Below, piece by piece: positions 7,271 through 27,753 of a stretch of DNA of 64,000 nucleotides. The translations under genes and the position numbers were made by a program. Source of the DNA: Natrarchaeobius oligotrophus (lineage in GTDB: Archaea; Halobacteriota; Halobacteria; Halobacteriales; Natrialbaceae); NCBI RefSeq assembly GCF_003841465.1, contig NZ_REFZ01000006.1, forward strand, positions 124,001-188,000, given 5' to 3'. The notes under the pieces are model-generated. The model made no database searches, was not told where the DNA came from, and saw nothing but the letters and a program-made list of their open reading frames with translations. The first letter of the stretch is position 1, and every line of letters starts with the position of its first letter.

Positions 7271-8286
7271 GTACGGAACGATCACCTTTCGGATCACGAC
7301 CGGTGCGCGCCGGCGTCATCGGCGTCGGCGCGATGGGCGAAAATCACGCGCGAGTGTACAGCGAGCTTCGCGACGTCGACCTCGTCGGCGTCGCCGATCG
7401 GCAGACGGAGCTGGCAGAGCGCGTCGCGGACGAGTACGGAACGACGCGACTATCGATGGACGAGTTACTCGAGCGGTGTGACGCGGTGACGGTCGCCGTG
7501 CCGACCCACGCCCACTACGAGGTGGTCACGAGCTGTCTCGCGGCGGGCGTCCACGTGCTGGTCGAGAAGCCGATCGCCGAGACGATCGAGGAGGGCCGAA
7601 CGATGGCGAAGCGTGCCGACGATGCCGGACTCGTCCTGCAGGTCGGTCACATCGAGCGGTTCAACCCCGCGGTCCGGACCGTGCACGAACTGATCGACGA
7701 CCTGGACGTGATCAGCCTCGAGGCCGAGCGTCTCGGTCCGCCGACCGACCGATCGGCGCTGGGCAACGTCGTCTTCGACCTGATGGTCCACGACGTCGAC
7801 ATCGTCGGATCGGTGCTCGAGGAAGAGCCAGCGCCGATCACGGCGATGGGAGCCGACGACGGGCGGTACGCGACCGCGACGATGGGGTACGGCGACGTCG
7901 TCGCCACGCTGACCGCGAGTCGCGTGACCCAGAAGAAGGTTCGAAAGCTCACGGTCACCGCCCGCGAGTGTCTCCTCGAAGTCGACTACCTGGAGCAGTC
8001 GGTGTTGATCCACCGGGACTCGTACCCCGAGTACCTCGTCGACGACGGACAGCGTCGGTACCGACACGAGAGCGTCGTCGAACGGCCACGCGTCGACAAC
8101 GGCGAGCCGCTTCGTCACGAACTCGAGTCGTTCGTCGAGGCGGTTCGGACCGGTTCGACGCCAGAGGTGACTGCCGAAGACGGCATCGACGCGCTCGAGA
8201 CCGTCCAGCGGATCGACGCGATCGTCTCGGACGAAGCGCCGCCGCGAGAGCGCACCGGCGAGCGAGAGCGCGAGGTGGAAGCCTGA
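7267..8286 (+). CDS. Gfo/Idh/MocA oxidoreductase (WbpB-like)
   Basis: The 339 residues open with a Rossmann nucleotide motif (AGVIGVGAMGENHARVY) and carry the EKP motif (about residues 100-102) that defines Gfo/Idh/MocA enzymes, then a C-terminal beta-sheet domain with VFDLMVHDVDIV. In this operon the likely reaction is NAD-dependent oxidation at C3 of UDP-GlcNAcA, the step before transamination. The start codon overlaps the stop of the aminotransferase (ATGA), and its own TGA overlaps the ATG of the next gene. Assignment to the WbpB role rests on context, because the family has many substrates. Confidence 0.8.
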   Translation: MSTERSPFGSRPVRAGVIGVGAMGENHARVYSELRDVDLVGVADRQTELAERVADEYGTTRLSMDELLERCDAVTVAVPTHAHYEVVTSCLAAGVHVLVEKPIAETIEEGRTMAKRADDAGLVLQVGHIERFNPAVRTVHELIDDLDVISLEAERLGPPTDRSALGNVVFDLMVHDVDIVGSVLEEEPAPITAMGADDGRYATATMGYGDVVATLTASRVTQKKVRKLTVTARECLLEVDYLEQSVLIHRDSYPEYLVDDGQRRYRHESVVERPRVDNGEPLRHELESFVEAVRTGSTPEVTAEDGIDALETVQRIDAIVSDEAPPRERTGEREREVEA

Positions 8287-9746
8287 TGGACGGTTCTGTC
8301 GCTCTCTACGGCTCGAGTCGCGCCGAGGATCGACAGCGCGAGCTGCTGACGAGCGGGCGAGTTCCCGTCGCCGTCTACGGACTCGGGAAGATGGGGCTTC
8401 CGCTTGCGGCCGTCTACGCGGAGACGACGGGGAACGTGACCGGCGTCGACGTCGATCCCGAAGTCGTCGAGACGGTCGACGACGGCCACTGCCACGTCGT
8501 CGGAGAGCCGGGACTCGATGACCTCGTGGCCGACCAGGTCGCCGCCGGTCGACTCGAGGCGACGACGGACGGGCCCGCCGCCGCCGAACGCGCGCGGATC
8601 CACGTCGTCATCGTTCCGACGCTGCTCGACGATCGGCGCGATCCCGACCTCTCGACCGTCGAGGCCGTGACCGACGACGTCGCCGCCGGTCTCGACCCGG
8701 GGGATCTGGTGATCGCCGAATCCACGCTGCCGCCGGGAACCTGTCGCGACGTGCTCCGCCCGCACCTCGCGAGCGAGAGCGGACTCGGTCCCGACGAGTT
8801 CGGCGTCGCGTTCTGTCCGGAACGCACCTCCTCGGGGACGGCGCTGCGCGACGTTCGTGGACACTATCCCAAGGTCGTCGGCGGCGTCGACGACGAGAGC
8901 ACGCGCGCAGCCACCGTCGTCTACGACGCGCTCTCGAGCAACGACGTCCACCCCGTCTCCGACGCGACGACCGCCGAAGCGGTGAAGGTGTTCGAAGGTG
9001 TGTATCGCGACGTCAACATCGGCCTGGCGAACGAGCTCGCCCGGCTGGCGGACGAACTCGGCATCTCCGTCAGGGAGGCGATCGAGACGGCCAACGACCT
9101 GCCGATGTGTCAGCTCCACGATCCCGGCCCCGGCGTCGGCGGTCACTGCATCCCGTACTACCCGTACTTCCTGCTGTCGACGATGGACGAACCGATGCGG
9201 CTGACGCGGACGGCACGCGCCGTCAACGACGAGATGCCGGCGGTCGTCGTCGACCGGCTGGCGGACGCCCTCGCCGCCGTCGACGACGACGTTTCGGACG
9301 CGTCCGTGCTCGTTCTCGGGCTCACCTATCGGCCGGGCGTCGAGGAGACCAGGGCGTCTCCGGCGCTCGACGTCGTCGCTGAACTGTCGGAGCGGGGTGC
9401 GGACGTCGCCGGCGTGGACCCGCTCGTCGATCCCTCCGAGTACGGCGCTCGGCCGGTCGCGCTCGAGGAGATCGGCGAGGAATCGTTCGACGCCGCCGTG
9501 GTCGTGACCCCTCACGAGGAGTTCGACCGGATCGAGTGGGGCGCGCTCGAGTCGATGGTCGTCGTCGACGCGCGGGACGCGCTCGACCTCTCGGGGACGG
9601 ACCACCGCGTCTACACGCTCGCCGGGTCGACCGACGGTCGACCGCCGTCCGACGGCAGCGATGCCGACGGACTCGATCGGATATCGTCGACGCCGTCTCC
9701 CGACCCGGCCGGTGCCCGGCGCACCGACGGAGGTGACGATGTATAA
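8286..9746 (+). CDS. UDP-N-acetyl-hexosamine 6-dehydrogenase (WbpA/WecC-like)
   Basis: This 486-residue protein has the full UDP-glucose/GDP-mannose dehydrogenase plan: an N-terminal Rossmann fold with VYGLGKMGLPLAAVYA, a central domain with EAVKVFEGVYRDVNIGL (lysine near 234), and the catalytic cysteine in PGPGVGGHCIPYYP (C288), then the C-terminal UDP-binding domain. It oxidises C6 of a UDP-HexNAc to the uronate with two NAD+. The neighbours favour UDP-GlcNAc (WbpA), although UDP-ManNAc (WecC) cannot be excluded. The last 45 residues are a Ser/Asp/Pro-rich tail outside the family fold. It overlaps the next gene by 8 nt. Confidence 0.88.
   Translation: MDGSVALYGSSRAEDRQRELLTSGRVPVAVYGLGKMGLPLAAVYAETTGNVTGVDVDPEVVETVDDGHCHVVGEPGLDDLVADQVAAGRLEATTDGPAAAERARIHVVIVPTLLDDRRDPDLSTVEAVTDDVAAGLDPGDLVIAESTLPPGTCRDVLRPHLASESGLGPDEFGVAFCPERTSSGTALRDVRGHYPKVVGGVDDESTRAATVVYDALSSNDVHPVSDATTAEAVKVFEGVYRDVNIGLANELARLADELGISVREAIETANDLPMCQLHDPGPGVGGHCIPYYPYFLLSTMDEPMRLTRTARAVNDEMPAVVVDRLADALAAVDDDVSDASVLVLGLTYRPGVEETRASPALDVVAELSERGADVAGVDPLVDPSEYGARPVALEEIGEESFDAAVVVTPHEEFDRIEWGALESMVVVDARDALDLSGTDHRVYTLAGSTDGRPPSDGSDADGLDRISSTPSPDPAGARRTDGGDDV
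9729..9736 (+). promoter_or_regulatory. Strong Shine-Dalgarno GGAGGTGA before the GT2 gene
   Basis: This near-perfect ribosome binding site lies inside the 3' end of the dehydrogenase gene, 2 nt before the ATG at 9739. It decides that start over earlier in-frame codons and marks internal re-initiation within the operon. Confidence 0.6.
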
Positions 9747-10812
9747 GGGGCGGACCGTCGCCGTCGTCGTCACGGCCTACGACGAGGCGGCGTTCGTCGG
9801 ACAGGTGATCGAGACTGTGCCGGAGTTCGTCGATCGGATCTACGCCGTCGACGACGCCTCGCCCGACGACAGCTGGGACGTGATCCAGCAGACGGCCTCG
9901 CGGATCAACGCGGCCGTCGAGCCCGAGCGGGCGGTCGCGGACGGCGGCGACGGCCGGCGCGTGGTTCCGATCCGTCACGAGGAAAATCGAGGCTACGGCG
10001 CGGCCGTCAAGACCGGCTACGAGCGAGCCGCCGAGGACGGCATCGACGTCGTGGCGGTGATGAACGGCGACGGGCAGATGGATCCCGCCATTCTCGACCG
10101 GATCATCGACCCGGTCGTCTCGGGCGAAGCGGACTACGCCAAGGGGAACCGGCTGCTCCACCCCGACGACAGAGACGGCATGTCGGCGTTCCGGCTGCTC
10201 GGCAACGCGATGCTCACCGGCCTCTCGAAGTTCGCCTCGGGATACTGGACGATCGGCGACCCCCAGAACGGTTACACCGCTATCTCGCGCGAGACGATCG
10301 AGCAACTCGACCTCGAGTCGATCACCGACCAGTACGGCTTTCTCAACCACATCCTGACCCACCTCAACCTCAACGGCTGTCGCATCGCCGACGTCTCGAT
10401 GTCGGCGATCTACGGGGACGAAGAGAGCAGCATCAGGTACGTGCCGTTCGTCCGGTACGTCTCGTTGCTGTTGCTTCAGAGCTTCCTGTGGCGGCTCAAA
10501 CGCCGGTACGTCGTCGAGGGATTTCACCCCGCCGTCGTCTTCTACGGGACGGCCGCGTCCGGCCTCGCCGGCGGGGTCGTGGGGTTCGTCGGCGCGTTAG
10601 GGCGGACCGCCCGCGGCAAGGACGGCTTCTCGAGCGTCCTACTTTCGTTCGTCGCCGTCCTCCTCGGTCTCGTCGCGCTCGGGATCGCGATCTCGCTGGA
10701 CGCCGAGGAGAGCGAGTCGCTCGAGGTGACCTACTACGAGCGAAGCGACGAACGGGAGGAAGGCGAGCGACCGACCGAGCCGCCGATCCGGACGCGCCAG
10801 TCGATGGACTGA
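9739..10812 (+). CDS. Glycosyltransferase family 2, membrane-anchored
   Basis: The 357 residues start with a GT-A fold: VVVTAYDEAAFVGQVI, the YAVDDASPDDS nucleotide-binding aspartates (38-39) and a MNGDGQMDP metal-binding segment near residue 111. Two membrane helices follow at about 259-280 and 293-316. This resembles dolichyl-phosphate-sugar synthases and related GT2 enzymes acting at the inner face of the membrane. As last gene of the operon it probably transfers the sugar made by the four preceding enzymes to a lipid carrier; donor and acceptor are inferred. A strong ribosome site fixes the start. Confidence 0.85.
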   Translation: MYKGRTVAVVVTAYDEAAFVGQVIETVPEFVDRIYAVDDASPDDSWDVIQQTASRINAAVEPERAVADGGDGRRVVPIRHEENRGYGAAVKTGYERAAEDGIDVVAVMNGDGQMDPAILDRIIDPVVSGEADYAKGNRLLHPDDRDGMSAFRLLGNAMLTGLSKFASGYWTIGDPQNGYTAISRETIEQLDLESITDQYGFLNHILTHLNLNGCRIADVSMSAIYGDEESSIRYVPFVRYVSLLLLQSFLWRLKRRYVVEGFHPAVVFYGTAASGLAGGVVGFVGALGRTARGKDGFSSVLLSFVAVLLGLVALGIAISLDAEESESLEVTYYERSDEREEGERPTEPPIRTRQSMD

Positions 10813-10846
10813 TCCGATCGCGGACTCGCTCGCCCGTTCGTCGAGC

Positions 10847-10851
10847 TTTTT
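10847..10851 (+). terminator. T-run after the five-gene operon
   Basis: Five consecutive T bases (CTTTTTA) occur 35 bases after the operon's last stop, in the gap between convergent genes. Haloarchaeal terminators are often simple T-runs, so this is a plausible end point. Confidence 0.3.
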
Positions 10852-10930
10852 ACCGGCTCGAGCGGAGAATTCGCCTCGAGTGGGACCACGATTCTCCGAC
10901 GCGCGACCGTGCAGGTCGTGGAGGCGAACG

Positions 10931-12031
10931 CTACGTCGACGCCGACCGCGGCCGGAGCGCTCGCCGCGTCGATCGGTCGACGGCTTCGAGCGATCCCTTC
11001 GCCTCCGCCACGTCGACGAGCAGGTCGGTGAGATCGACGAGGTCCCCGACGTACTCGCGTCGCCGTCGCTGCCACCGGTCGTCGGCCGACTCGTCGGTCA
11101 AGAGTTCGATCGCGCGCTCGCGGACTGCCGCGTACTCGTCGAACTGCTCGGCGAGCCCCACGCGCTCGAGTTCGGCGAACTCGCCGTACTCGTGGTCGTC
11201 GGTGCCGCGAAAGCGAAGCGCGGGCGTCCCCAGCAGCGCTGCCTCGTTGATCATCGTCCCGGTGTCGGCGACCAGCAGCGCCGCCTCGGCCATCGCGTCG
11301 TGGATCAGCGCCGGGTGGAGGTCGTACGGCCGGGCCGGTAGCTCGGCGAGGTCCATCCCGCCGCCCTCGTCGGAGACGAACACCGTCGCGTGCCGGCTCA
11401 GCCGCTCGATGAGGTCTCGCCGCTGCCGTCGGCCGAAGCCCTCGAGTCCGGCGTCGTGGAGCGCGTCGAGGGCGTTGAAGCGAACCAGCGCGTACCGCTC
11501 GTCCGATCCGACGCCGAGGTAGTCGCGGACGGCCCGATCCGGTTCGAACACCGCAGGGTGGAGGTAGGCGCACTCCTTGAATCCGTCGAAGGTGTAGTGG
11601 TCGTCGCCCAGGTCGCGGCGGGTGACCGCCGGCGAGAGGATGCAGGTCGCAAACGGCCGCGAGACCGTGTGGTTGAAGTCGCCTGGCTCGTCGTCGAGAA
11701 CGAGCACGACCGGCGAGCGGGTGATCGTCCCCGCCAGCGCGGCGTACGGCCCCCGACCGAAGACGACGTCCGGCCGAAAGCGCGTCGCTTCGGCCGCGAT
11801 CCGGCCGGCCTGTCCGGCGAACTCGCGCGCGAGTCGCACCTTCGACGACGCGGCGGTGTCGTGTGCGCCGTAGCGCCGGTAGGGAAGCCCGAAGAACTCG
11901 AGTAAGTCGGTCGTACAGGCGTACTCGCGGGTCAGGACGAGGACCTCGTGGCCCGCCTCCTCGAGTCTCGATACGGCGTGGCGATACAGATGGACGTGCG
12001 CGGGCGTGTTGGCGAAGACCAGAATCCGCAT
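10931..12031 (-). CDS. DUF354 protein, GT-B-like glycan enzyme
   Basis: This 366-residue protein begins MRILVFANTPAHVHLYRHAV and keeps the DUF354 pattern: RFRPDVVFGRGPYAALAG, VLVLDDEPGDFN, ALVRFNALDALHDAGLEGF and a C-terminal LLVADTGTMINEAALLGTPALRF. The fold resembles GT-B enzymes such as UDP-GlcNAc 2-epimerase; DUF354 genes are common in archaeal surface-glycan loci but the reaction is not established. Because no separate WbpI-type epimerase is visible here, a 2-epimerase-like role is one possibility. A one-mismatch ATAACAAA word lies 26 nt upstream of its start. Confidence 0.75.
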   Translation of the reverse strand: MRILVFANTPAHVHLYRHAVSRLEEAGHEVLVLTREYACTTDLLEFFGLPYRRYGAHDTAASSKVRLAREFAGQAGRIAAEATRFRPDVVFGRGPYAALAGTITRSPVVLVLDDEPGDFNHTVSRPFATCILSPAVTRRDLGDDHYTFDGFKECAYLHPAVFEPDRAVRDYLGVGSDERYALVRFNALDALHDAGLEGFGRRQRRDLIERLSRHATVFVSDEGGGMDLAELPARPYDLHPALIHDAMAEAALLVADTGTMINEAALLGTPALRFRGTDDHEYGEFAELERVGLAEQFDEYAAVRERAIELLTDESADDRWQRRRREYVGDLVDLTDLLVDVAEAKGSLEAVDRSTRRALRPRSAST

Positions 12032-13260: not shown

Positions 13261-14232
13261 CTAACGATACTGCTCGCGGTACCACGCCATCGTCTCCGGT
13301 AGGTGCGACTCGAGTGGCTCGTACTCGTAGCCGAGTTGCTCGTGGGCCTTTCTCGAGGTGTAAAACAGTCGCTGGGTCGCCAGCCTCGCCATCTTCCGAT
13401 CGAAGGGGAACACCTGTCGGCCGGTCACGGTCCCGACCGCAGCGGCGACGGGTCCGGCGGCGCGGATCGCGGTCGACGGGACCGGAACGCGGGCCGGCGA
13501 TCCGTCCGCGTGGTCCGCGATTCGTGCGACAGCCCGATCGTAGGTGAGGTTCTCGCCGCCGAGGATGTAGTGCTCGCCGCGACCGCCGCCGTCGTAGGCC
13601 GCGAGCAGTCCGTCGACGACGTCCGAGACGCCGACGATGCTCAGTCCGCCGGGGAGGTACGCCGGCATGGTCGGCTCGAGGCCCATCGCCAGCAGTTGCG
13701 GCGTGAAGGAGTCGTCTCCGGGACCGAAGATCGAGGTCGGGTGGACGGTGACGGCGTCGCCGCCCGTCTCCGCGTAGCGGTCGACGAGCTCCTCGGCCGC
13801 CGCCTTCGAAGACTGGTAAGCGCCGATCGGCTCGGCCACGTCGGATTCGTCCGCGACCACGGCGGAGCCGTTCGTTCGTCGAGTTCCCGCGGTGCTGGTG
13901 AACACCACGCGCCCCGCGTCGCACGCACGGCAGGCCTCGAGGACGTTTTCGGTTCCGTCTCGGTTGACTCGCTCGACGGTGTCCGGGTCGGCGCTCCAGA
14001 GACCGACGCCGGCGAGGTGAAAGATCGCGTCGGCCCCGTCGACGAGCGGTTCCAGCGTCCGGCGGTCGAAGAGGTCGCCGACGTACCAGTCGATTCCGTC
14101 GAGACCGTCGCGATCCGACGAGGGACGGCTGAGTCCGCGGACGTCCCAGCCGTCCTCGCGGAGGCGTTCGCAGAGGTGCCTCCCGAGAAATCCCGTCGCT
14201 CCCGTCACCGCCGCCGTCTGGCCCGTCGTCAT
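13261..14232 (-). CDS. NAD-dependent epimerase/dehydratase (extended SDR)
   Basis: This 323-residue protein opens with the dinucleotide motif VTGATGFLGRHL, carries FHLAGVG and a Ser-Thr-Ala (VVFTSTAGT) segment, and has the catalytic pair in GAYQSSKAAAE (YxxxK). It is an extended short-chain dehydrogenase acting on an NDP-sugar or a related compound; members with this VFHLAGVG/LWS pattern include 4-epimerases and dihydroflavonol-reductase-like enzymes, so the substrate stays open. The ATG at 14232 overlaps the stop of the DUF362 gene (ATGA), which places it third in the operon led from 16264. Confidence 0.8.
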   Translation of the reverse strand: MTTGQTAAVTGATGFLGRHLCERLREDGWDVRGLSRPSSDRDGLDGIDWYVGDLFDRRTLEPLVDGADAIFHLAGVGLWSADPDTVERVNRDGTENVLEACRACDAGRVVFTSTAGTRRTNGSAVVADESDVAEPIGAYQSSKAAAEELVDRYAETGGDAVTVHPTSIFGPGDDSFTPQLLAMGLEPTMPAYLPGGLSIVGVSDVVDGLLAAYDGGGRGEHYILGGENLTYDRAVARIADHADGSPARVPVPSTAIRAAGPVAAAVGTVTGRQVFPFDRKMARLATQRLFYTSRKAHEQLGYEYEPLESHLPETMAWYREQYR

Positions 14233-15161
14233 CGTCCTCCCTCTAGCTGCGGCGGGACGGCGTCGCGACCGACGGCCGCGTAGAGGCGGTACGCCGCGGT
14301 GACGGCCGGGTGTGCGTCGCCGGTCGCCGGCAACCGTCCGCCGGAGAGACGATCTCGAATCGACTCGACGTCGACGGCACCGGAACCGATTCGTTCGATC
14401 TCGACCGGCGGTTCGGTTTCGAGCGTCGGTTTCAGGACGGGATCTTCGTCGATCGATCGGCCGAGCAGCGACGCCCCGACCGCGTCGACGGACGCCGCCG
14501 GTCCGGCGAAGACGGCGTTCGTCGCGTGCGGATCGTCGCCGTAGGCCGTCGTCGCGTCGAGCACCGCGAGCGCAGGCTCGATCGCGTCCGCCGCGGCGAT
14601 CGTCGCCTCGGGCGAGCCGTCCGACCGGTCGTCGAAGCGCGAGAGCGTCCGCGTTACACCCGCGAACTGCCCCGTCCGGGTTGGCCGAAGCGTCGGGACG
14701 ACGATCACCCGCTCGTCGAGCAGCCGCGTCGGGATGGACGTCGAGACCGACCGACCGCCGACGTCGCGAACGACGGTCGTCCGCGGTTCGTCCGCGGGAT
14801 CGAACAGCGCCGCGTCGAATCGATCGACCAGTTCGGGGTAACCCAGGAACGCGGCCGTTCGATCGACGTCGACGTGCTCGCTTCCGGCGACGGCGACGGA
14901 GAGATCGGTCCCGGTACGATCCGTCAGAAACCGGCAGATCGCACCGACTACGGCGGGATCGGTCACCACGCCCGTCGACGGGTGGAACGGGTAGTGTGCG
15001 TCCGGGACGATGGTGACGCCGTCGTCGTCGGCGACGATCGAGTCCGCGGTTGCCTCGAGGACGGCTTCGACCGGTCGGGCGAACGCGGCCGTGCGCTCGC
15101 GAACGTCCGGCGTCCAGCCGCCGGATTCGTCCGCGGCCGCAACGCACACACGTCGATCCAT
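14229..15161 (-). CDS. DUF362 domain protein
   Basis: The 310 residues match DUF362: VTIVPDAHYPFHPSTGVVTDPAVVGAI, a mid-region ERVIVVPTLRPTRTGQFAGVTRTL, and a late AVFAGPAASVDAVGASLLG. No ferredoxin-like cysteine cluster is present, unlike some DUF362 proteins. The family has no settled reaction. Its place between an oxidoreductase and an epimerase, with stop/start overlaps on both sides, argues for a role in the same sugar pathway. The ATG at 15161 shares bases with the TAA of the upstream gene. Confidence 0.75.
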   Translation of the reverse strand: MDRRVCVAAADESGGWTPDVRERTAAFARPVEAVLEATADSIVADDDGVTIVPDAHYPFHPSTGVVTDPAVVGAICRFLTDRTGTDLSVAVAGSEHVDVDRTAAFLGYPELVDRFDAALFDPADEPRTTVVRDVGGRSVSTSIPTRLLDERVIVVPTLRPTRTGQFAGVTRTLSRFDDRSDGSPEATIAAADAIEPALAVLDATTAYGDDPHATNAVFAGPAASVDAVGASLLGRSIDEDPVLKPTLETEPPVEIERIGSGAVDVESIRDRLSGGRLPATGDAHPAVTAAYRLYAAVGRDAVPPQLEGGR

Positions 15162-16264
15162 TACAGCGTCACCTCCGACGACTCGAGTTCCTCGTCGTCG
15201 GTTCGAGTGGCACGCTCGTACGCCTCCTCGGTCAGCTCGAGCGTTCGTCGGCCGTCCTCGCCGTCGACCGGCGGCGACGATCCCGCTCGGACGCTCTCCA
15301 GAAAGTCGGCAAGGGCGTCGTAGTGCGCCCGGAGATAGAACGTCGGACCGAAGACGTCGGGTTCGTCGCCGGTCGCGCGGGTCGCGACGTTCGTGAGAGC
15401 CGATTTGGCCGCGCTCGCGTAGAAGTTCTCCGGCAGGTGGTCCTCGTTGCTGATCGTTCCCGCGATCCCCTCGAGTCGCAACTGCGTGTTGACCTCCGGC
15501 AGTTCCTCCCACTGGTAAGAGCCGCAGTGTAGCGAGATGATCGTCTCGGTCTCCGGTGCGCGAAGAAGGACGGTCGCCGCGTCCTCGACCGGGAGATCGA
15601 GCGTGCCGTCGATCGCCGCGCACTCTACCTCGAGATCGCCGAACAGCCACCTGAGAACGTCGAAACAGTGAATGCCGAGTTCGAGCAGCGATCCGCCGCC
15701 GGCCGCGTCAGGGTCGAGCGCCCACTCCGGCGGCGCGTCCCGGGCCGGAGGTCGACCCAGCGGCCCGTCGTTCAGGCGCGTGATCGAGGCGTAGGGGACG
15801 TGGCCGACGGTTCCGTCGTCGTAGTCCGTCTTCACGCCTTTCATATCGGGCTGGTAGCGCAGCGTGTGATCGACGCCGACGGCAATCCCGGCCGCGTCTG
15901 CGGCCTCGAGCAGCCGGTCCGCCTCAGCCGTCGAACGCGCCAGCGGCTTCTCAACGAAGACGTCGACGTCGTTCGCTGCGGCGACTTCGACCGCGTCGGC
16001 GTGAAGAAAGGGTGGGAGCGCGACGACCGCCGCATCCAGCTCTTCGGACTCGAGAAGCGTCGCGTAGTCCTCGTACGTCCGCGAGACCCCGGCCCGCTCC
16101 GCCCGGTTTCGGTTCTCCGGGGCGGCGTCCGCCACAGCGAGAACGTCGACGTTCGCCATCGCGAGCGCCGACTTCAGATGGACCATGCCGATGTTTCCAA
16201 TCCCGAGAACGCCGATGTCGAGCGTCCCCGAATCGGAGTCTCGGCCGAGAAGTGTCGTATTCAT
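15161..16264 (-). CDS. Gfo/Idh/MocA oxidoreductase, second copy
   Basis: This 367-residue enzyme has a Rossmann motif (IGVLGIGNIGMVHLKSAL), the EKP motif in VDVFVEKPLARST, and the C-terminal substrate domain with GGSLLELGIHCFDVLRWLFGD, where the GIHxxD pattern supplies the usual catalytic residues. It probably oxidises or reduces an NDP-sugar or inositol-like ring. It is only distantly similar to the 7267-8286 copy, so a second sugar pathway is likely. It leads a three-gene operon and is preceded by an exact ATAACAAA word. Confidence 0.82.
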   Translation of the reverse strand: MNTTLLGRDSDSGTLDIGVLGIGNIGMVHLKSALAMANVDVLAVADAAPENRNRAERAGVSRTYEDYATLLESEELDAAVVALPPFLHADAVEVAAANDVDVFVEKPLARSTAEADRLLEAADAAGIAVGVDHTLRYQPDMKGVKTDYDDGTVGHVPYASITRLNDGPLGRPPARDAPPEWALDPDAAGGGSLLELGIHCFDVLRWLFGDLEVECAAIDGTLDLPVEDAATVLLRAPETETIISLHCGSYQWEELPEVNTQLRLEGIAGTISNEDHLPENFYASAAKSALTNVATRATGDEPDVFGPTFYLRAHYDALADFLESVRAGSSPPVDGEDGRRTLELTEEAYERATRTDDEELESSEVTL

Positions 16265-16581
16265 CCGTGCGAGTGGGGGTCCTCGGCGGGCTTTGTTATC
16301 ATCGTCGTACAGTCGACCGGCCGAAACGGCCGTCGTCTCCGCGGTCGATTCCCGCTGTGTACCGATCGACGACGCGGTGAACGTTCTCGTTCGACGACCC
16401 GATCACCGACGCTACCGTGGGTAACTGCGCGATACAGAACGAGTCCCGTCCGTCTCGTTTTTCCCGGCCGCGAAACCGTTCGACGAGGCGAACGGTTCGA
16501 ACCGTCGTCGAACGCACTGTCGGACCGAGCGCCGACTGCTCATCGATCACGCCGCCGATCTATCCGCTCGCGGTGCGTCGA
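16265..16581. other. Intergenic region upstream of the second Gfo/Idh gene
   Basis: The gap lies between two minus-strand genes. It carries the ATAACAAA word at 16292-16299; the rest shows no gene or repeat that I can support. Confidence 0.5.
16292..16299 (-). promoter_or_regulatory. ATAACAAA site, upstream of the Gfo/Idh-DUF362-epimerase operon
   Basis: The minus strand reads ATAACAAAGC, with 27 nt to the ATG at 16264. This is the spacing expected for a TATA-type element in a leaderless haloarchaeal gene. Confidence 0.6.
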
Positions 16582-17520
16582 TCACGCCGTGACCGTTCCG
16601 CCGTCGACGCTTCCGCGAGCACGGAGGCGACGCGCGACGTCGGCCATCGTCTCCACCGTGAGATCGGTTTCGGCGCGCCGGCGATCGACGTACTCGAGGA
16701 TCGCACGCATCCGCTCGTCGTCTCGCTCGTGGGTCAGGTTGTTCGGGTGGAGCCAGAGATGACACACTCCGTCGTTTCGGATCGCCTCGTCGATCCCCGT
16801 CCGCGCCTGAGCGACCATGGGATCTCGCCAGACTGCTTCCGCGACCGTTCTCGCCGGTCCCTCGAAGCCGAACAGGAACAGCGACGCCGGGACGTTCACC
16901 AGGCCGTACTCGTCGACCGTCGGCTCGACCAGCAGCGATCGATTTCGGACGGTCGAATCGACGATCCCCCGAACGCCGTCTCCGGTGGGCGATCGCCCAC
17001 GGTAGGCGCTGATGCCGTACTCGGCGAGGACGTCGCGGTGTCCGACGTCGTTTCGCGGGTAGACGAACGACTCGACGGTCTGACCCCAGTCGGCGGCGAT
17101 CTCTGCGCTTCGCTCGAGTTCGGCGGCCGCGAGTTCGCGGTCGGTCTCGGGCCGTCCGAAGAGGACGTGCGAAAACGAGTGACTGGCGAACTCGTGGTCG
17201 ACGTCGGCCTCGAGGAGGTCGGCGACGAGGTCGCGTCCGAATCGCAGATCCTCGCGGTCGCGCCACTCTGTTCTCTCGCGTTCGAACCAGCCCTCGGGGG
17301 CCGGGTGATCGGCGTGGACGCCGTCACAGGAGTCGAGCATGAGGTGGCCGACGACCGCCCACGTCGCGGGGACGTCGTACTCGTCGAGCAACTCGAGCAG
17401 CGCGGGCCAGCCACGTCGGCCGGCTTCGACCCGCTCGCTCGGGAGCGTCTCGAAGTCGTGAAATCCCCAGCCGAGCTCGGCGTCGATCGAGAGCACGACG
17501 CTACCCACGTCGTCCACCAC
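16582..17520 (-). CDS. Polysaccharide deacetylase (NodB-type)
   Basis: This 312-residue protein has the carbohydrate-esterase 4 plan: SIDAELGWGFHD near the N-terminus (catalytic and metal-binding aspartate), the metal pair in FASHSFSHVLF (HSFSH), ESFVYPRNDVGH, and a late HLWLHPNNL with the last catalytic histidine. It would remove acetyl groups from N-acetyl-hexosamine units. No signal peptide is visible, so action in the cytoplasm on a precursor is more likely than on the finished polymer. An exact ATAACAAA word precedes it. Confidence 0.85.
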   Translation of the reverse strand: MVDDVGSVVLSIDAELGWGFHDFETLPSERVEAGRRGWPALLELLDEYDVPATWAVVGHLMLDSCDGVHADHPAPEGWFERERTEWRDREDLRFGRDLVADLLEADVDHEFASHSFSHVLFGRPETDRELAAAELERSAEIAADWGQTVESFVYPRNDVGHRDVLAEYGISAYRGRSPTGDGVRGIVDSTVRNRSLLVEPTVDEYGLVNVPASLFLFGFEGPARTVAEAVWRDPMVAQARTGIDEAIRNDGVCHLWLHPNNLTHERDDERMRAILEYVDRRRAETDLTVETMADVARRLRARGSVDGGTVTA

Positions 17521-17805: not shown

Positions 17806-19395
17806 ATGAGCGGACTTACTACTTCGTCCGAGCGAGCGTTCGTGCTCGGACTCGACGGCGTGCCGTGGAGGCTCATCGAACAGTGGAGCGACGAGGGCGA
17901 GCTGCCCAACTTCGCACGAATGCGCGAGGACGGTGCCTCGGGACCGCTCGTGAGCACCAGCCCGCCCACGACGCCGCTGGCGTGGCCCTCGATCGCGACC
18001 GGCGTCTGGCCCGATAAGCACGGAATTTACGGATTTCAGAACCTCTCTCGGGAGTACTCCCACGAGATGTACACGAGCCGCGATTTCAAACAGCCGACGC
18101 TCTGGGAGTTGCTCTCGCCCGCTCACGTCGGGAACGTTCCGATGACGTATCCGGTGCGCGAAATCGACGGAACGATGGTCGCGGGGATGATGACGCCCTC
18201 GACGGAGCGGGAGTTTACACACCCCGCGGATCTCGGCGACGACATCGACGCGCGGATTCCGGACTACCGGATCAGCCTGGATTATCCCAAGTACGCAAAC
18301 AGACTCGACGACTTCGAGGAAGCCGTCGGCGGTATGCTCGAGAACCGACGCGAGTTGATGCGTCTGCAGATGGACCGTGCGGGTGACGACTGGGAGCTGT
18401 TCTTTTTCGTCTACACCGCACCCGATCGGTTTCAGCACCTGATCTGGGACGACGATCGCCTTCTCGAGCACTACCGAAAACTCGACGACCTGCTGGGGGA
18501 GGTCCTGGCGTACACCGATCGCCACGACAGCGACCTCTACGTCGTCTCCGACCACGGCTTCGGGCCGATCCACCAGCTCGTCTTCGTCAACCACGTTCTC
18601 GAGCGTGAGGGGTACCTCTTCAGGCGCGAAGATCAGGGAACGAGGGGGGCGCTCGCGAGTCTCGGTATCTCGCGCGACCGCATCACGAACGCTCTCGAAC
18701 GGGTCGGCATCTCCGAAGAGATGCTCATCTCGACGTTACCCCGGGGGCTCGTCGACTCGGTCGCAGAACAGATCCCGGGCGATCACGCGCTCTACGACGT
18801 CGACTTCGATCGGACCGTCGCGTTCGTCCACGACGCCGGCAACTGCTACGTCAACGACACCGACCGCTTCGAAAACGGGGTCGTCTCCCCGATGGACGTC
18901 CCGGACGTGAAAGCGGAACTCGTGTCCGTCTTCGAGTCCGTCACCGACGAGAACGGTCGATCGGTGCTCTCGGTCGAGGACGGAGACGAACTGTTCCCGA
19001 CGGACGACGAGTCGCCGGATCTGATCGTCAACGGCGTCGACGGTTACGAGTCTCGCACCGCGATCACGGACCGGGTGTTCGGCGACACGGGGACGTACGC
19101 CGCGAGCCATCGATCGCAGGGGATCGTCCTCTGTCACGGCCCTTCGATCGATCCAGGTGCGACGCTTCGGGGGGCACGGGTGGTCGACGTCGCGCCGACG
19201 CTGTTGCACGGAATCGGCCAGCCCGTTCCCGACAACGTCGACGGCCGAGTGCTGTTCGACGCGTTCCGCTCGGACGCGACGCCGTCGCGAACGAAAGTCG
19301 AGCGAACGAGCGTCTCCCGACGCGAGCGCGACGACGTCGACGACGACTTCACCGACGTCGAGAATCGCCTGAAGGGGCTCGGGTACATGGAGTAA
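17806..19395 (+). CDS. Alkaline phosphatase superfamily protein (type I phosphodiesterase-like)
   Basis: This 529-residue protein has the metal-binding aspartate of VLGLDGVP (D17), a Thr nucleophile segment TTPLAWPSIATG (residues 55-67), WPDKHGIYGF, and the YVVSDHGFGP metal site near residue 249. That is the type I phosphodiesterase/nucleotide pyrophosphatase branch. No membrane segment or signal peptide is seen. Relatives are common in archaeal glycan loci, where they may hydrolyse or transfer phospho-groups on sugars or lipids; the substrate is not known. A paralogue of similar length is at 37185-38810. Confidence 0.82.
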   Translation: MSGLTTSSERAFVLGLDGVPWRLIEQWSDEGELPNFARMREDGASGPLVSTSPPTTPLAWPSIATGVWPDKHGIYGFQNLSREYSHEMYTSRDFKQPTLWELLSPAHVGNVPMTYPVREIDGTMVAGMMTPSTEREFTHPADLGDDIDARIPDYRISLDYPKYANRLDDFEEAVGGMLENRRELMRLQMDRAGDDWELFFFVYTAPDRFQHLIWDDDRLLEHYRKLDDLLGEVLAYTDRHDSDLYVVSDHGFGPIHQLVFVNHVLEREGYLFRREDQGTRGALASLGISRDRITNALERVGISEEMLISTLPRGLVDSVAEQIPGDHALYDVDFDRTVAFVHDAGNCYVNDTDRFENGVVSPMDVPDVKAELVSVFESVTDENGRSVLSVEDGDELFPTDDESPDLIVNGVDGYESRTAITDRVFGDTGTYAASHRSQGIVLCHGPSIDPGATLRGARVVDVAPTLLHGIGQPVPDNVDGRVLFDAFRSDATPSRTKVERTSVSRRERDDVDDDFTDVENRLKGLGYME

Positions 19396-19912: not shown

Positions 19913-21238
19913 TTACCGAACGGAGCGAATCCGATCGAGACCCATTTTCACCGCCTTCACCGTCGGATACGCTCCGTTGTACACTCGAGTCGGCGTGTTT
20001 CTCGCGCCCGCGCGCAAAATACGGTGAGACAGCGGCGGTCGTGCGTCCGCGACGAGTTCGTCGAGGTCGACCGCCACGAGCCACTCGAAAAACGCCCGCT
20101 CTCGCTCCGACGACGGTTCGGTTTCGCGGACGCGGTCTCTGATGTCGGCCCACATGTGGCGTTCGTCCTGACCGAGCACCCACTCGCCGCCCTCGAGCGC
20201 GGACCGGATCTCGTCGTAATCGCGATCGACGAACGCGTACCCGTGTCTCGACGGCTCGAGTCCGGACAGACGCAGTCCGACTGCCGTCCGATAGCACTTC
20301 TCGCACTCGCCGCAGTTGCCGTCCATCCGGACGTTACAGGTCTGGAGTTCGAGCGAGGGGGCGTCGGATTCGACGTAGTCGGCGATCGCATCGAGGCGTT
20401 CCTGACGGGTGAGTTCGTAGGCATCGTGATGACACCGCGTTCCGCTCCAGCGGACGTTGTCGTCGATGTCCGGCCGAGAGCCCCACTCGAGGTCGATCCC
20501 GTCCCAGTGGGTCGCGGCGACGTAGAGGTCGCCGATCCCTCGAGCGTACGCCATCGGCGCACAGAGTCCAAGCAATCCGAGCCCGTGACCGACGGAGCTG
20601 TACCACGCGCCGTCGACGTGGCGTTTGTAGTGGGCGAGCAACATCGGATGGTCGAGCGCCGACAGAACGTTCGATTCGACGAAGGCCGTCTCGAGTCCTC
20701 GCTCGTCGGCGAACGACTCGACGCGGTTTCGGAGGTCGTCCCACTTCCGGTCGTCCGCCCGGTCGGGCGTGATCGTCCAACCACGGATGCTCACGAGCGC
20801 CGGCTCCTCGTCGCGGTGGCGGACGTACGAACACGTCGAATCGACGCCGCCGGTAAAGAGGAGGGCGCTTTCACTCTCCGCACCGTCGATCGATTCCGCG
20901 GCCGGCTTCGGTTCGATCGTTCGACGGGCGTAGAGCGTTCCGCCCTCGAGGAAGTCGTACATCCCGAGCAGCGACGCCTTTACGTCCTCGAGCGCGCGGG
21001 CGAACGACGCGTCCACCTCGTCGACGTAGACGTCGGCTCCGTTCGCCCACGCGACCGGGCAGACGTTCGCGAGGACGGGAATCGCGAGAATTCCCTCGGG
21101 AACGTCCTCGATCGACCGGTCGTAGCTGGTGACGAACGTCTCCCCCGAAAAAAACCGGGCGACGTCCGCCGACGGACGAATTTCGCACTCGAGCGTGTTC
21201 TCCCGCACCGTGATCCGATCGATGACGATTGTTGACAT
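19913..21238 (-). CDS. QueC-like PP-loop ATP-pyrophosphatase
   Basis: This 441-residue protein has a PP-loop, LLFTGGVDSTCSY (residues 127-137), and a zinc-type cysteine set C301-x7-C309-x2-C312-x2-C315 (NCGECEKC), which resembles the zinc site of QueC. QueC is about 230 residues; here some 125 extra residues precede the PP-loop and about 125 follow the cysteines. PP-loop enzymes activate a carboxyl or carbonyl group as an adenylate before adding nitrogen or sulfur. Its place in a glycan locus suggests amidation or amine addition to a sugar or peptide, but that is inference. The start is the methionine of MSTIVIDRITV. Confidence 0.7.
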   Translation of the reverse strand: MSTIVIDRITVRENTLECEIRPSADVARFFSGETFVTSYDRSIEDVPEGILAIPVLANVCPVAWANGADVYVDEVDASFARALEDVKASLLGMYDFLEGGTLYARRTIEPKPAAESIDGAESESALLFTGGVDSTCSYVRHRDEEPALVSIRGWTITPDRADDRKWDDLRNRVESFADERGLETAFVESNVLSALDHPMLLAHYKRHVDGAWYSSVGHGLGLLGLCAPMAYARGIGDLYVAATHWDGIDLEWGSRPDIDDNVRWSGTRCHHDAYELTRQERLDAIADYVESDAPSLELQTCNVRMDGNCGECEKCYRTAVGLRLSGLEPSRHGYAFVDRDYDEIRSALEGGEWVLGQDERHMWADIRDRVRETEPSSERERAFFEWLVAVDLDELVADARPPLSHRILRAGARNTPTRVYNGAYPTVKAVKMGLDRIRSVR

Positions 21239-21647: not shown

Positions 21648-23438
21648 ATGAAACGTGCGACTGTGAACGGCGCGCTCGCCGTCGGGTTTTTCGCGCTCGC
21701 GATCGGCGTGCTGTTCGCCCGAGCGAATCCGGCGACGGCCTACGAGGCGTCGGTGTACGCGGCAACGCCCGGCGGAGTGTGGGTGGCGTTCGCGCTGGCG
21801 CTTTCGCTCGCGGTCGCGACGACGCTCGGCTGTCGCGGTCGCTTCCAGACGCTCGGAATGGCGCTGGGTGCGTTGACGGTCACGTCGATCGTCAGCCTAC
21901 CCGTGCTCAGAAACTACCGCTTTTCGGGGATGGGCGACGCGTTGACGCACCTCGGATGGACGCGAGACATCGTTGGCGGCGAGTTACTCCCGCACGAGTT
22001 GATCTATCCGGGCGTCCACTCGCTCGGAATCGCCCTTCACTTCCTCGGCGGAATCCCCCTCGAGCGTGCGTTGCTCGTGACCGTCGTCGTTCTGTTCCTT
22101 CCGTTTCTGATCTTCGTTCCGCTGATCGTCAGGGACGTAACCGGTACCCCCGCGGCCGTCGGCTTCGCGGCGATCGTCTCCTGGATGGTGCTGCCGGTCA
22201 ACAACGTCGCGACGCACATGGGCATTCACTCCAACTCGAACGCGCTGTTTCTGGTCCCCGTCGTCGTCTTCGCGTTCGTCGCGTACCTCGGGCGGCGATC
22301 GACGATCGAACGCCTCCCGTTCGGCCTCTCGCCGTTCAGCGTCCTCATTTATCTCACCGCGATCGTCCTCCTGGTCGTTCATCCCCAGCAGATGATCAAC
22401 GTCGTCGTTCTCGCGGGAGCGATCGCCGGCGTACAGCTTCTCGCCCACCGGCGGCTTGACGACCATCCGGTGCTCGAGCAGCCGACGATGTACGCACAGA
22501 CGGTCGTGCTCGGAAGTATGTTCACGGTCTGGACGATGGCCAACGAGCGGTTCAGGACCGCGTTCGTCAACATGATCGAAGGGGTCTTCATCGAGGACGT
22601 GGGCGCGGGAGCCGAGGTCGACCAGCGCGGAGCGTCGCTGGCGGAGATCGGCGGTAGCCTCGCGGAGCTATTCGTCGTGATGTTTCTCGACGCGGCGATA
22701 ATCGGCATCGTTGCCGGTCTCTTCGTTCTCGCGGTCTGGCTCGGACGGACGAGTCTGGATCGAGAAGCCGCGTCGTTCGTCACGTACTTCGGAATCGGGC
22801 TGATTCCGCTCGGCGTCATCTTCCTCGTCTACTTCGTCGGAACGCCGACGATGGCGTTTCGCCAGGTCGGGTTCATCTACGTGCTCCTGACGATTCTGGC
22901 CGGGATCGCGCTCGCGCACCTGTTCGGCGGCCTCTCGGGCGTGATCACGAGGCCTGGGGCAACCACGGTTGCCGCGGTTTTCGTCGGTGCGTTGCTCGTC
23001 CTCGGACTGGCGACCGTCTACGCTTCGCCGCTGATCTACAGCCCCGGCCAGCACGTGACCGACCAGAAGTTCAGCGGTTACGAGTCTGGATTCGAACACG
23101 GCGTCGACGACCGACCCCACGCCGGCCTCGGCTACGATCCGTACCGGTACGATCACGGACTCCACGGGCTCGAGGGTGAGGAGACTCTGAGCGGTGCCAC
23201 GGTCGCGACTGGCGAGGTCGATCCGGAGGCGTTCGAAGCGGGGAACTACAGCGGTGCATATCACGGAATTGATTACTACCTCGTCGTCACCGAGTACGAC
23301 GTGACGAGGGAGGTGGACGTCTATCAGGAGCTTCACTACAGCGAGGAGTCGCTCGCGGGACTCCAGGGAGAGCCGACAGCCGACAAGGTGATCTCCAACG
23401 ACGAGTTCGAGATGTACGCAATCGCTAGCGACGAGTGA
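21648..23438 (+). CDS. Polytopic membrane protein, GT-C glycosyltransferase-like
   Basis: The 596 residues contain about 11-12 membrane helices up to roughly residue 465, then an outer C-terminal domain of about 130 residues rich in Tyr, Asp and Glu. The loop after the third helix has FSGMGDALTHLGWTRDI (D97, H101), followed by GELLPHELIYPGVHS. An acidic residue in the first long outer loop is typical of GT-C enzymes that use lipid-linked sugars. The family is not one I can name. The locus and the ATAACAAA word favour polymer assembly or export on the outer face; a flippase- or polymerase-like role is also possible. Confidence 0.65.
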   Translation: MKRATVNGALAVGFFALAIGVLFARANPATAYEASVYAATPGGVWVAFALALSLAVATTLGCRGRFQTLGMALGALTVTSIVSLPVLRNYRFSGMGDALTHLGWTRDIVGGELLPHELIYPGVHSLGIALHFLGGIPLERALLVTVVVLFLPFLIFVPLIVRDVTGTPAAVGFAAIVSWMVLPVNNVATHMGIHSNSNALFLVPVVVFAFVAYLGRRSTIERLPFGLSPFSVLIYLTAIVLLVVHPQQMINVVVLAGAIAGVQLLAHRRLDDHPVLEQPTMYAQTVVLGSMFTVWTMANERFRTAFVNMIEGVFIEDVGAGAEVDQRGASLAEIGGSLAELFVVMFLDAAIIGIVAGLFVLAVWLGRTSLDREAASFVTYFGIGLIPLGVIFLVYFVGTPTMAFRQVGFIYVLLTILAGIALAHLFGGLSGVITRPGATTVAAVFVGALLVLGLATVYASPLIYSPGQHVTDQKFSGYESGFEHGVDDRPHAGLGYDPYRYDHGLHGLEGEETLSGATVATGEVDPEAFEAGNYSGAYHGIDYYLVVTEYDVTREVDVYQELHYSEESLAGLQGEPTADKVISNDEFEMYAIASDE

Positions 23439-23465
23439 GTCGTGCCTTCAGGCTACACAGCCCCC

Positions 23466-24398: not shown

Positions 24399-24424
24399 AG
24401 TGTAAGCTCTTGTTACCCAGGTGT

Positions 24425-25369
24425 ATGGCGCAGAATCCCCGTACGTCCGAGACGGACACATCTCCGACTACAGGTCGTAATTCCGGATTAAGCCGACGAA
24501 ACTACGTTCGCTCGCTCGCCGCGGTGGCGACCGCCGCGACGTCGCTCGGTGCGGCCGGTACCGTCGCGGCCGCGGACGACTACGAGGTAATCGAAGCGCA
24601 GAACCAGACGATCACCGTCGAGTCCGGCGAGACCTGGGAGAACAAGCTGATCGACATGACCACGGGTCAGGACGTCGTCGTCACGGCCCACGGCAGCGAC
24701 TGGACGATCCGCAACGTCGGCTTCGAGGGTGAGAACACCTCCGGTGCCGGCTCCGCGACGTTCGGCATCTCCGACGCCGGCGGCTCGAGTACGGTCGAGA
24801 ACGTCTACCTCGGCGACGGCTCCGACAGCCGAAACGGCAGTTCGTCGGGTCACGGTCAGACTGCGTTCTGGGTTGACCCCGATCACGCGGGTCACGTCGA
24901 CTTCCGGAACGTCAACGTTCAGGGCTTCGCGGACAACGCGATCTACGCGTCGGCGCCCGGAAACGCGGGTGGGGGGACCATCCACGTCGATCGGTGTTTC
25001 GCCGCGAACTGTTACGTTTCTCACTTCCGGCTCGCCACCGAGGGGAGCAAGGTGACCAACTCCTGTGTCTACGTCGACGAGGACGACTACGACGGACGCG
25101 GAATCTGGGCCTGGGCACCGGGCACCGTCGAAGTCGAGAACTGCCAGCTCGAGATGAACGGTCGAAACGTCGCGATCGACGCCGGCGCGAACGGACAAGC
25201 GACCACGGTCGTCGTCCGCGACACCGACTACGACGACGCAGCCGGCATCGGCGAACACGACGGATCGTCCGTCCAGCTCGAGGACGACGTCGGAACCGAC
25301 CCCGAGGCCTACGTTCCGAGCGGAGTTCCGACCTCGGCCGAGGAAGCCGCCGCCGGCTCCGATACCTAG
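24425..25369 (+). CDS. Tat-exported right-handed beta-helix protein
   Basis: This 314-residue protein begins with a Tat signal (SRRNYVRSLAAVATAATSLG; R24-R25) cleaved near AAA-DD. The mature part is a right-handed parallel beta-helix of short turns: WTIRNVGFEG, STVENVYLGDGS, HVDFRNVNVQGF, TIHVDRCF, KVTNSCVY, TVEVENCQLEMNG. It ends with VPSGVPTSAEEAAAGSDT, a linker also found in the paralogue at 25957-27753. Such folds serve as polysaccharide lyases, epimerases or adhesins; no catalytic residues can be assigned. The chosen ATG fits the TATA spacing. Confidence 0.8.
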   Translation: MAQNPRTSETDTSPTTGRNSGLSRRNYVRSLAAVATAATSLGAAGTVAAADDYEVIEAQNQTITVESGETWENKLIDMTTGQDVVVTAHGSDWTIRNVGFEGENTSGAGSATFGISDAGGSSTVENVYLGDGSDSRNGSSSGHGQTAFWVDPDHAGHVDFRNVNVQGFADNAIYASAPGNAGGGTIHVDRCFAANCYVSHFRLATEGSKVTNSCVYVDEDDYDGRGIWAWAPGTVEVENCQLEMNGRNVAIDAGANGQATTVVVRDTDYDDAAGIGEHDGSSVQLEDDVGTDPEAYVPSGVPTSAEEAAAGSDT

Positions 25370-25956: not shown

Positions 25957-27753
25957 ATGGCACGCGAACCTTCGGTACTGGACGAAGCGCGTTCCGTCGA
26001 CGATGACGAGGACGCACCGGAAGACGACGGTGAGACTGGTAATTCCGGGTTACTGGGGCGACGTTCGTACATGACGCTCGCCGGCGTGACGACGGCGGCC
26101 GCCACGCTCTCGAGCGTGACGAGCGCCGGCGGGGACGACTACGAGGAGATCACCGCCCGCGGCCAGGTCATCAGGATCGGGCGGGGCGAGACCTACGAGA
26201 ACAAGCTGTTCGATCTCACCAACGGCAACAGCGTTCTGTTGCTCGTCGAGGGGGGTAACTCCGTGATCCGGAACGTCGGATTCAGGGGGCTCCACCGCGG
26301 CGACGGCTTCATGATCTCCATCAGCGCAGCAAGCGGCGACGTCCTGATCGAGAACGTTTACCTCGGCGACGGATCGACCAAAGAGGGCGAGAGCTTCGTC
26401 CACGGACCCGGCGCGGTGTTCTACCACCGGAACGCCTCCTGCGACGTCACGTTTCGGTACTGCAACGTCCAGGGATGGCCGAACAACGGTTTCTACTGCT
26501 CGAACACGGCCAGCGGCGGCTCCGTCCGCTTCGAGCACTGTTACGGCAAGAACAACGGGGTGAGTACCTACCGGGTCGCTGGCGGCCGAGACGCCATCGT
26601 CGACTGCGTGGCGTACAATGACGACACCGACTACGGCCCGGGCTGGGGCGGCTACGTCGAGGACGCCGGTCGGCCGGTGTGGGTCTGGCCCGGTAACACG
26701 GTTCGGATCGACGACTCGAACGTCGCGAGCGGGTCGTACCCCTACGCGATGGTGCTGCGCGGGAACGCGACGGCCCGGATGACCGGCGGAGCCATTCGAG
26801 GAACCGTCCAGGGAGGCGGTCTCAACCGTTCGAACGTCTCGAGCGATCCGGACCTCTCCGTTCCGGAGGGCGTCCCGACCTCGCCCGAGGAAGCCGCGGC
26901 CGGCTCGAAGGGTACTACGGCCGACACGGACGCGCCGACGGACGCCGAGGACGACGACGGTCCGCTCGAACACCTGATCCTGTTCGACGGCGATCCAGCC
27001 GGCGTGACCCGCTACGAGTTCGAAGTTAGCGGTTCGGTCGAGAAGTCGACGGACGAGGGCGCGTCGATCGACGACGAGGACGTGATCGACGGCGAGTTCG
27101 TCCACGGCGTGGTCGCCGACTGGAAGGACGCGTTCCGGTTCAGCGGTGACCTCGAGCAGTTGACGGTCGACGGCCCGGCGACCGTGTTCGTCGACGGTGA
27201 GGTCGTCGATCCGACCGACTACGGGGTCGACCGGCCACACGTCCTGGAGGTGACGAGCCGCGACGGTCCGGCGAGTTTCGAAGTTACGGTCGACGGCGAG
27301 ATCGAACTCGAGTCCGACGAGAATCCGGCGGACGAGACGACGGCGGTTTCCGGAACGACCGTCCAACGTTCGATCACGGACGGAAGTGAGACGTTCAGGT
27401 TTTCGGGTGCGCTGACCGACGTGACCGTTATCGACGGAGAAGCCGAGATCAGCCTCGACGGTGAACCGATCGATCCGGACGACTACGGCGACCACGAACT
27501 GTTGCCCCACGCGCTCGTCATCGACGGAACCGACGCCGACGGACCGAGCACGTACTCGTTCGAGACGAGCGGAGCCGTCGTGACGTCCACGTACGACGAC
27601 GCGTCGGTCGACGACGCCGTGATCGAAGACGGCGTCGTCCGCGGCGTCGTCGACGACGAACGTACCGCCTACTGGTTCGACGGCGAGATCGAATCGTTCA
27701 GACTGTTCGGACGTGCATCCGTCGACGTTCAGTACAACGCTCGCGAACAGTAG
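25957..27753 (+). CDS. Tat-exported beta-helix protein with three C-terminal modules
   Basis: This 598-residue protein has a Tat signal (GRRSYMTLAGVTTAAATLSS; R35-R36) and then a beta-helix closely related to the 24425-25369 protein: shared ENKLFDLTNG, IRNVGF, ENVYLGDGS, CNVQGWPNNGFY and the VPEGVPTSPEEAAAGS linker. After an acidic spacer (about 318-332) come three related modules of 80-95 residues, each built on an FxFSG- or YWFDG-type core, a VDG-like turn and, between modules, DPxDYG followed by a HxLxxxDG-like start. The modules look like beta-sandwich repeats for binding or spacing at the cell surface. No enzyme site is assigned. Confidence 0.8.
   Translation: MAREPSVLDEARSVDDDEDAPEDDGETGNSGLLGRRSYMTLAGVTTAAATLSSVTSAGGDDYEEITARGQVIRIGRGETYENKLFDLTNGNSVLLLVEGGNSVIRNVGFRGLHRGDGFMISISAASGDVLIENVYLGDGSTKEGESFVHGPGAVFYHRNASCDVTFRYCNVQGWPNNGFYCSNTASGGSVRFEHCYGKNNGVSTYRVAGGRDAIVDCVAYNDDTDYGPGWGGYVEDAGRPVWVWPGNTVRIDDSNVASGSYPYAMVLRGNATARMTGGAIRGTVQGGGLNRSNVSSDPDLSVPEGVPTSPEEAAAGSKGTTADTDAPTDAEDDDGPLEHLILFDGDPAGVTRYEFEVSGSVEKSTDEGASIDDEDVIDGEFVHGVVADWKDAFRFSGDLEQLTVDGPATVFVDGEVVDPTDYGVDRPHVLEVTSRDGPASFEVTVDGEIELESDENPADETTAVSGTTVQRSITDGSETFRFSGALTDVTVIDGEAEISLDGEPIDPDDYGDHELLPHALVIDGTDADGPSTYSFETSGAVVTSTYDDASVDDAVIEDGVVRGVVDDERTAYWFDGEIESFRLFGRASVDVQYNAREQ

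Follow-up and report, generated by a model that had tools for sequence, protein, structure and literature searches.

In this study, we describe a 441-residue protein of Natrarchaeobius oligotrophus, encoded among glycan genes, as a member of a family that has so far escaped annotation. The stretch of DNA analyzed, hereafter the window, is 64,000 nucleotides long (Table 1). We propose that the protein is the first representative of an as yet unannotated family within the QueC PP-loop superfamily, with a three-part architecture like that of QatC, and that it would amidate a sugar carboxylate in surface-glycan biosynthesis. Taken as a whole, we consider this proposal about equally likely to be right or wrong; support is good for its fold, its family and its glycan context, and the substrate and the product are inferred.

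Table 1. Features of the window around the QueC-like gene; locus counts refer to the 46 haloarchaeal loci compared, with 10-kb flanks.
Feature	Position	Strand	Basis or occurrence
Hexapeptide acyltransferase-like ORF, DegT aminotransferase, UDP-GlcNAc 3-dehydrogenase-like, UDP-HexNAc 6-dehydrogenase	5457..9746	+	NCBIfam
GT2 (AglJ/DPM-synthase-like, +) and DUF354 protein (-)	9661..12031	mixed	
Glycan block: epimerase/dehydratase, DUF362, Gfo/Idh dehydrogenase, polysaccharide deacetylase	13261..17520	-	29-33/46 loci
Alkaline-phosphatase-superfamily (AP) phosphodiesterase	17806..19395	+	PF01663, 2.7e-41; AP-type in 43/46 loci
Small hypothetical protein, 142 aa	19418..19846	+	17/46 loci; no Pfam match
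QueC/QatC-like PP-loop protein, 441 aa	19913..21238	-	ORF from ATG at 21238
Predicted zinc site C301-x7-C309-x2-C312-x2-C315	20294..20338	-	computed from ATG at 21238
PP-loop FTGGVDS, residues 128-134	20837..20857	-	computed from ATG at 21238
Membrane protein, 596 aa, DUF6541-related, GT-C-like fold, divergently transcribed	21648..23438	+	46/46 loci
Predicted secreted protein, twin-arginine-like leader, beta-helix-like by eye	24410..25369	+	43/46 loci
Second predicted secreted protein, twin-arginine-like leader, beta-helix-like by eye	25957..27753	+	43/46 loci

Distribution and annotation of the family

Full-length orthologues sharing 62-81% identity are present in 112 of the 125 Natrialbaceae genomes, and a more distant set is found in other haloarchaea, in other archaea of the phylum and in bacteria, including Priestia, Pseudobutyrivibrio, Azospirillum and cyanobacteria. 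Most of the annotated relatives that we examined lie in glycan loci. The gene thus represents a real, well-defined and unannotated family. Because the minus-strand frame is kept at this level of identity and in this many genomes, the overlapping ORF at 19859-21235 on the plus strand is best read as a high-GC shadow of it. Single-sequence searches of Pfam, NCBIfam and PADLOC returned no match to the protein at E values up to 10, and a PHROGs search gave nothing significant. Since the family falls outside the PF06508 model, which does not detect the protein, the published PF06508 network survey is expected to have missed it. Neither was an asparagine synthetase domain (PF00733) with a glutaminase domain matched in the protein, and a PF00733 match (E 0.043) appeared in one distant relative only. 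Phage records gave no match to the QueC-like protein; distant relatives lie on seven IMG/VR contigs.

Two relatives stand in tandem on a Priestia plasmid (L079:13063-15667, plus strand), where they adjoin a pyruvyl transferase gene. In another haloarchaeal family, genomes carry two divergent paralogues of 43-46% identity at separate places (L176 and L177 in G357), one of them near a polysaccharide deacetylase gene and a FemAB-like gene.

Motifs, fold and placement in the QueC superfamily

The protein is laid out as an N-terminal domain (residues 1 to about 110), a PP-loop core with the four-cysteine site (about 120-330) and a helical C-terminal extension. About 120 residues precede the PP-loop and about 125 follow the zinc motif, which makes it about twice as long as QueC, with extensions at both ends as the earlier note had described. 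In an alignment of 30 sequences, in which the PP-loop takes the forms FTGGVDS or FSGGxD, the invariant positions are F128, G131 and D133 of the loop, W212, P256, H271, R278, R317 and the four cysteines (C301, C309, C312 and C315), while W252-G-S, H218-G, N308, E313-K314 and T318 are nearly invariant. The intact FTGGVDS loop and the C-x7-C-x2-C-x2-C pattern, both recognized in that note, persist down to about 20% identity, with a shorter first cysteine spacing in one relative (L107); retention throughout the alignment indicates that these motifs are not due to chance.

Profile and fold comparisons place the protein in the QueC superfamily. Among PDB chains, sequence profiles ranked QatC first (E 0.015 and 0.028) and QueC next (0.42), matches that are only suggestive. 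In profile-profile comparisons (hhalign), QatC reached 96.8% (E 2e-10, residues 60-331) and archaeal QueC 96.2% (E 2e-9), but the control, argininosuccinate synthase, another PP-loop protein, only 5.6%. With an AlphaFold2 model built from 30 sequences (pLDDT 87, pTM 0.85), the best PDB match in Foldseek was QatC (9y01/9y02, 445 columns, E about 1e-6 (1.2e-6), probability 1.00); since the whole-model TM is about 0.39, the sharing of extensions with QatC rests on the E-value and the alignment span rather than on a tight superposition. Over the core the model resembles QueC (3bl5/2pg3, probability 1.00, TM 0.64-0.72 normalized to QueC; 0.65-0.72 for 3bl5), and weaker fold matches were to the sulfurtransferase TtuA. 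In a tree of the core region, mid-point rooted and spanning large divergence, the family forms one group at 100/99 support, separate from QueC and QatC. These comparisons make membership in the QueC superfamily well supported, with QatC as the apparent nearest full-length solved relative and QueC after it. The protein is nevertheless neither of the two: it lacks the essential QueC motifs, a separate queC-queE-queD operon is present elsewhere in the genome, and the neighborhood showed no recognizable qat or CBASS partner.

That the protein is a second preQ0 synthase, a true QueC, is extremely improbable. It has in common with QueC the core fold, an SGGxDS-type loop and a C-x7/8-CxxCxxC site, but differs in its length, in the absence of preQ0 genes nearby and in its motifs. 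In the profile alignment to archaeal QueC, none of YxQxHxxE, VPxRN and YPDC, as defined in PMC13329287, is found in the 441-residue protein, which has RGWT where QueC has YGQR.., SVGHG in place of VPFRN and WGS-R-P-D in place of YPDC. E. coli QueC cannot do without Y35, R99 and Y131, three residues of these motifs (PMC13329287). Since the motifs are replaced, the Tyr/Asp pair with which QueC and Cap9 recognize deazaguanine (PMC13279940) is missing in this alignment, as it is in QatC. In the genome, PF06508 detects argininosuccinate synthase and a genuine queC on another contig, where the adjacent ORFs are read as queE and queD. Around the QueC-like gene no queuosine or archaeosine genes were recognized, in agreement with the earlier note, and neither queD nor queE was found nearby in the 46 loci compared; homologues beside preQ0 genes, a pattern raised there as counter-evidence, were not seen in the loci examined; against the other such pattern, a structure lacking the QueC zinc site, stands the resemblance of the model to QueC over the core.

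More probable than a true QueC, but still quite unlikely, is a QatC- or Cap9-like ligase that would attach a small acid to a partner protein, possibly a surface protein, at its N-terminus, by deazaguanylation or a similar reaction. QatC of the qatABCD anti-phage system (PDB 9y01, 9y02, 9zee and 9vlk) is the top match by profile and fold, and has a PP-loop core, a four-cysteine site, a similar length, and N-terminal alpha/beta and C-terminal helical extensions that those of our protein may resemble. However, the two share only about 15% identity, QatC has a C-x~19 spacing (C-x19-CGxCxxRR) versus C-x7 here, its D-x4-R-x7-W-x-R and TK motifs are not retained, and the family forms a separate clade in glycan loci with no qat genes. 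The QatC link, mentioned in passing in the earlier note, therefore stands as the closest match, but without qat partners: no qatA, qatB or qatD and no CBASS gene or CD-NTase partner was recognized in the 46 loci or by PADLOC on the protein and its neighbors, ten of which gave only two marginal matches (E 0.004-0.009), and that note had likewise seen none adjacent. Among the window ORFs read, no neighbor starts with the MGTS/MGGS substrate motif of PMC13279940, the Tyr/Asp pair of QueC and Cap9 is lacking, and the bacterial relatives sit with glycosyltransferases. Cap9 of type IV CBASS is likewise a carboxylate-amine ligase of the QueC superfamily, but it is minimal (about 185 residues), keeps the QueC signature and has a CD-NTase partner.

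DUF6395 (PF19932) is another possible relative. Several members of the family gave weak profile matches to it, the best at 7e-5 and under the Pfam cut-off, and profile comparison gave 16-42%. The one DUF6395-labelled protein read, from a Priestia glycan plasmid (L174:19183-20499, minus strand), is of similar length and carries the PP-loop YSGGVDS together with a Cys-rich motif. DUF6395 may thus represent a further family of QueC-like PP-loop proteins in glycan loci. Literature searches on DUF6395 and DUF6541 found nothing.

A membrane partner and the glycan neighborhood

Orthologues of the QueC-like protein and of the divergently transcribed membrane protein occur in the identical 112 of 125 Natrialbaceae genomes and both are absent from the same 13, a count in which one genome with only a 46% QueC-like paralogue (G008) and two with only weak membrane paralogues (G003 and G004) are called as absences. 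Several of the 13 are draft genomes or belong to a single genus, and for this reason only a few losses, perhaps four, would be independent. In 109 genomes the two genes are adjacent, and both are kept where they lie apart, by 0.6 Mb in G079 and by 1.08 Mb in G084. DUF6541 is matched by 5 of 18 orthologues of the membrane protein (best 1.5e-10). From its model, which is weak (pLDDT 63), Foldseek placed the GT-C glycosyltransferases AftA, OST, DPY19, PglB and AglB on top (probability 0.95-1.00, E 1.5e-3 to 0.09), and we interpret it as a GT-C-like transferase, which would use a lipid-linked sugar on the outer face of the membrane.

Glycan genes surround the QueC-like gene in the 46 haloarchaeal loci, which bears out the glycan locus of the earlier note. 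Within the glycan block, the polysaccharide deacetylase recurs in 33 of the 46 loci, the Gfo/Idh dehydrogenase in 30, and DUF362 and the epimerase in 29 each. The two related proteins predicted to be secreted have no Pfam match. The gene set at the left of the window, in which the acyltransferase was read from its ORF and the NCBIfam matches lie under equivalog cut-offs, with only the TIGR03026 nucleotide sugar dehydrogenase clearing its own, could make UDP-2,3-diacetamido-uronate; it lies 10-14 kb from the QueC-like gene, beyond the 10-kb flanks compared. ATP-grasp, FemAB or GNAT genes are present in some other loci.

Short ORFs at 23442-24192 (plus strand) resemble remnants of a CoA-transferase gene and a GNAT gene, and the sequence from 23442 onward starts, by eye, like CaiB/BaiF proteins; intact mct and GNAT genes occupy the matching place in Halostagnicola and Natrononativus (L077 and L171).

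Outside the haloarchaea, polysaccharide loci hold relatives in Priestia, Pseudobutyrivibrio, Gloeothece, Gemmobacter and Nostoc, and the Azospirillum relative adjoins a polysaccharide pyruvyl transferase gene with few other glycan genes there. Genes of the pyruvyl-transferase family stand near the relative in five bacterial lineages (Priestia, Pseudobutyrivibrio, Azospirillum, Gloeothece and Gemmobacter) and in an archaeon (G471), and uronate-type dehydrogenases are encoded both in the window and in the Priestia locus. A sugar enzyme that installs a carboxylate is thus found near the QueC-like gene in most lineages, but not within 12 kb in the Nostoc locus; the link to pyruvyl transferase is suggestive, with the caveat that such genes are common in polysaccharide loci generally. 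As a universal partner, pyruvyl transferase was rejected, since despite its presence in six lineages it was undetected in the haloarchaeal and IMG/VR loci scanned.

Proposed activity and its alternatives

By analogy, the protein most likely works like the WbpG-type N-sugar amidotransferases (cluster 5 of PMC13329287; MMP1081 of Methanococcus), which are also superfamily PP-loop enzymes modifying surface-glycan sugars. WbpG works on O-antigen sugars (PMC13329287), and one sugar of an archaeal glycan depends on the WbpG homologue MMP1081 for an acetamidino group (PMC2952790). The likeness does not extend to the cysteine pattern of WbpG (CxxC-x6-CxC), which is absent here, or to glutaminase partner genes, none of which was recognized near the QueC-like gene. 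Of the families that the earlier note named for a profile search, QueC was matched in the profile-profile comparison (96.2%), and searches with the single sequence gave no WbpG or N-sugar amidotransferase match in NCBIfam to E=10 and none to PF00733.

QueC converts a carboxylate to an amide and then to a nitrile with ATP and ammonia (PMC13329287), and Cap9 joins QueC's acid to a protein amine (PMC13279940). These precedents and the nearby acid-sugar genes lead us to propose ATP-dependent amidation of a sugar-bound carboxylate. Acidic or pyruvyl-bearing sugars are plausible substrates because the gene set of the window could make UDP-2,3-diacetamido-uronate and pyruvyl-transferase genes lie nearby elsewhere. 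Given the PP-loop, the four-cysteine motif, the homology to QueC and QatC, the glycan context and the genome-level tie to the GT-C-like protein, all of which are observed, we infer the following order of steps. The PP-loop would bind ATP, and the sugar-borne carboxylate, a uronic acid in haloarchaea and possibly a uronate or pyruvyl ketal carboxylate in bacteria, would be adenylated with release of PPi. Ammonia or another amine would then attack the acyl-adenylate, yielding the amide and AMP, and the acidic sugar thus amidated, as such or linked to a lipid, may be used by the GT-C-like transferase to build or decorate the surface glycan. Of the sugar- or peptide-amidating enzyme suggested earlier, amidation of a sugar is the best surviving reading by context and superfamily chemistry, and the peptide part found no specific support.

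Two other readings are each unlikely. The somewhat stronger one is that a carboxylate, ketone or thiocarboxylate is activated on another target, such as a lipid or a cofactor or in sulfur transfer, and that the glycan neighborhood is incidental. PP-loop enzymes take many substrates and TtuA is among the weaker fold matches, but the matches to QueC and QatC are far stronger, and the family is repeatedly found among glycan genes in bacteria and archaea that are unrelated. Slightly less probable, though still a viable alternative, is that an amino acid instead of ammonia is ligated to the glycan carboxylate, like the threonine ligase of the methanococcal archaellin glycan. A uronate-threonine amide does exist in archaeal glycans, and a 2010 review still had no enzyme to name for the joining of threonine to the uronic acid in Methanococcus (PMC2952790). 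ATP-grasp and FemAB/GNAT genes lie in the locus in several genomes, yet ATP-grasp and FemAB are not constant partners, and no amino-acid-binding feature was identified in the protein.

Amidation of poly-gamma-glutamate, an idea suggested by the walls of Natronococcus, was rejected, with CapC found in 26 of the 125 family genomes and absent from that of N. oligotrophus. We know of no amidated uronic acid in Natrialbaceae.

The wider reading of our proposed sugar amidation is more doubtful than the proposal itself: in archaea and bacteria alike, the carboxylates of surface glycans may be joined to ammonia or another amine by a widespread, unnamed QueC/QatC-like family, whose zinc-site PP-loop enzyme would act with no glutaminase. 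Protein modification in phage defense has recently been demonstrated or suggested for relatives of QueC, and the QueC scaffold is now seen in surface-glycan pathways of archaea and bacteria as well. This suggests that QatC-type extensions are not unique to defense; if true, the long QatC architecture would not be confined to anti-phage systems, and QatC and the present family would both descend from an older ligase that was already extended. Amidation of carboxylates alters charge, which is relevant to cells living in saturated brine, and the protein is a concrete candidate for those amidation or amide-ligation steps of archaeal glycans to which no enzyme has been assigned.

Further along the window, a second alkaline-phosphatase-superfamily gene is followed by a FemAB/GNAT-type acyltransferase gene (37170-39817, plus strand), and a pair of this type also lies near the QueC-like gene in genomes without the glycan block at 13261-17520. 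Two ORFs at 55594-58195 (plus strand) are read as a trehalose-phosphate synthase/phosphatase pair (otsA/otsB-like).
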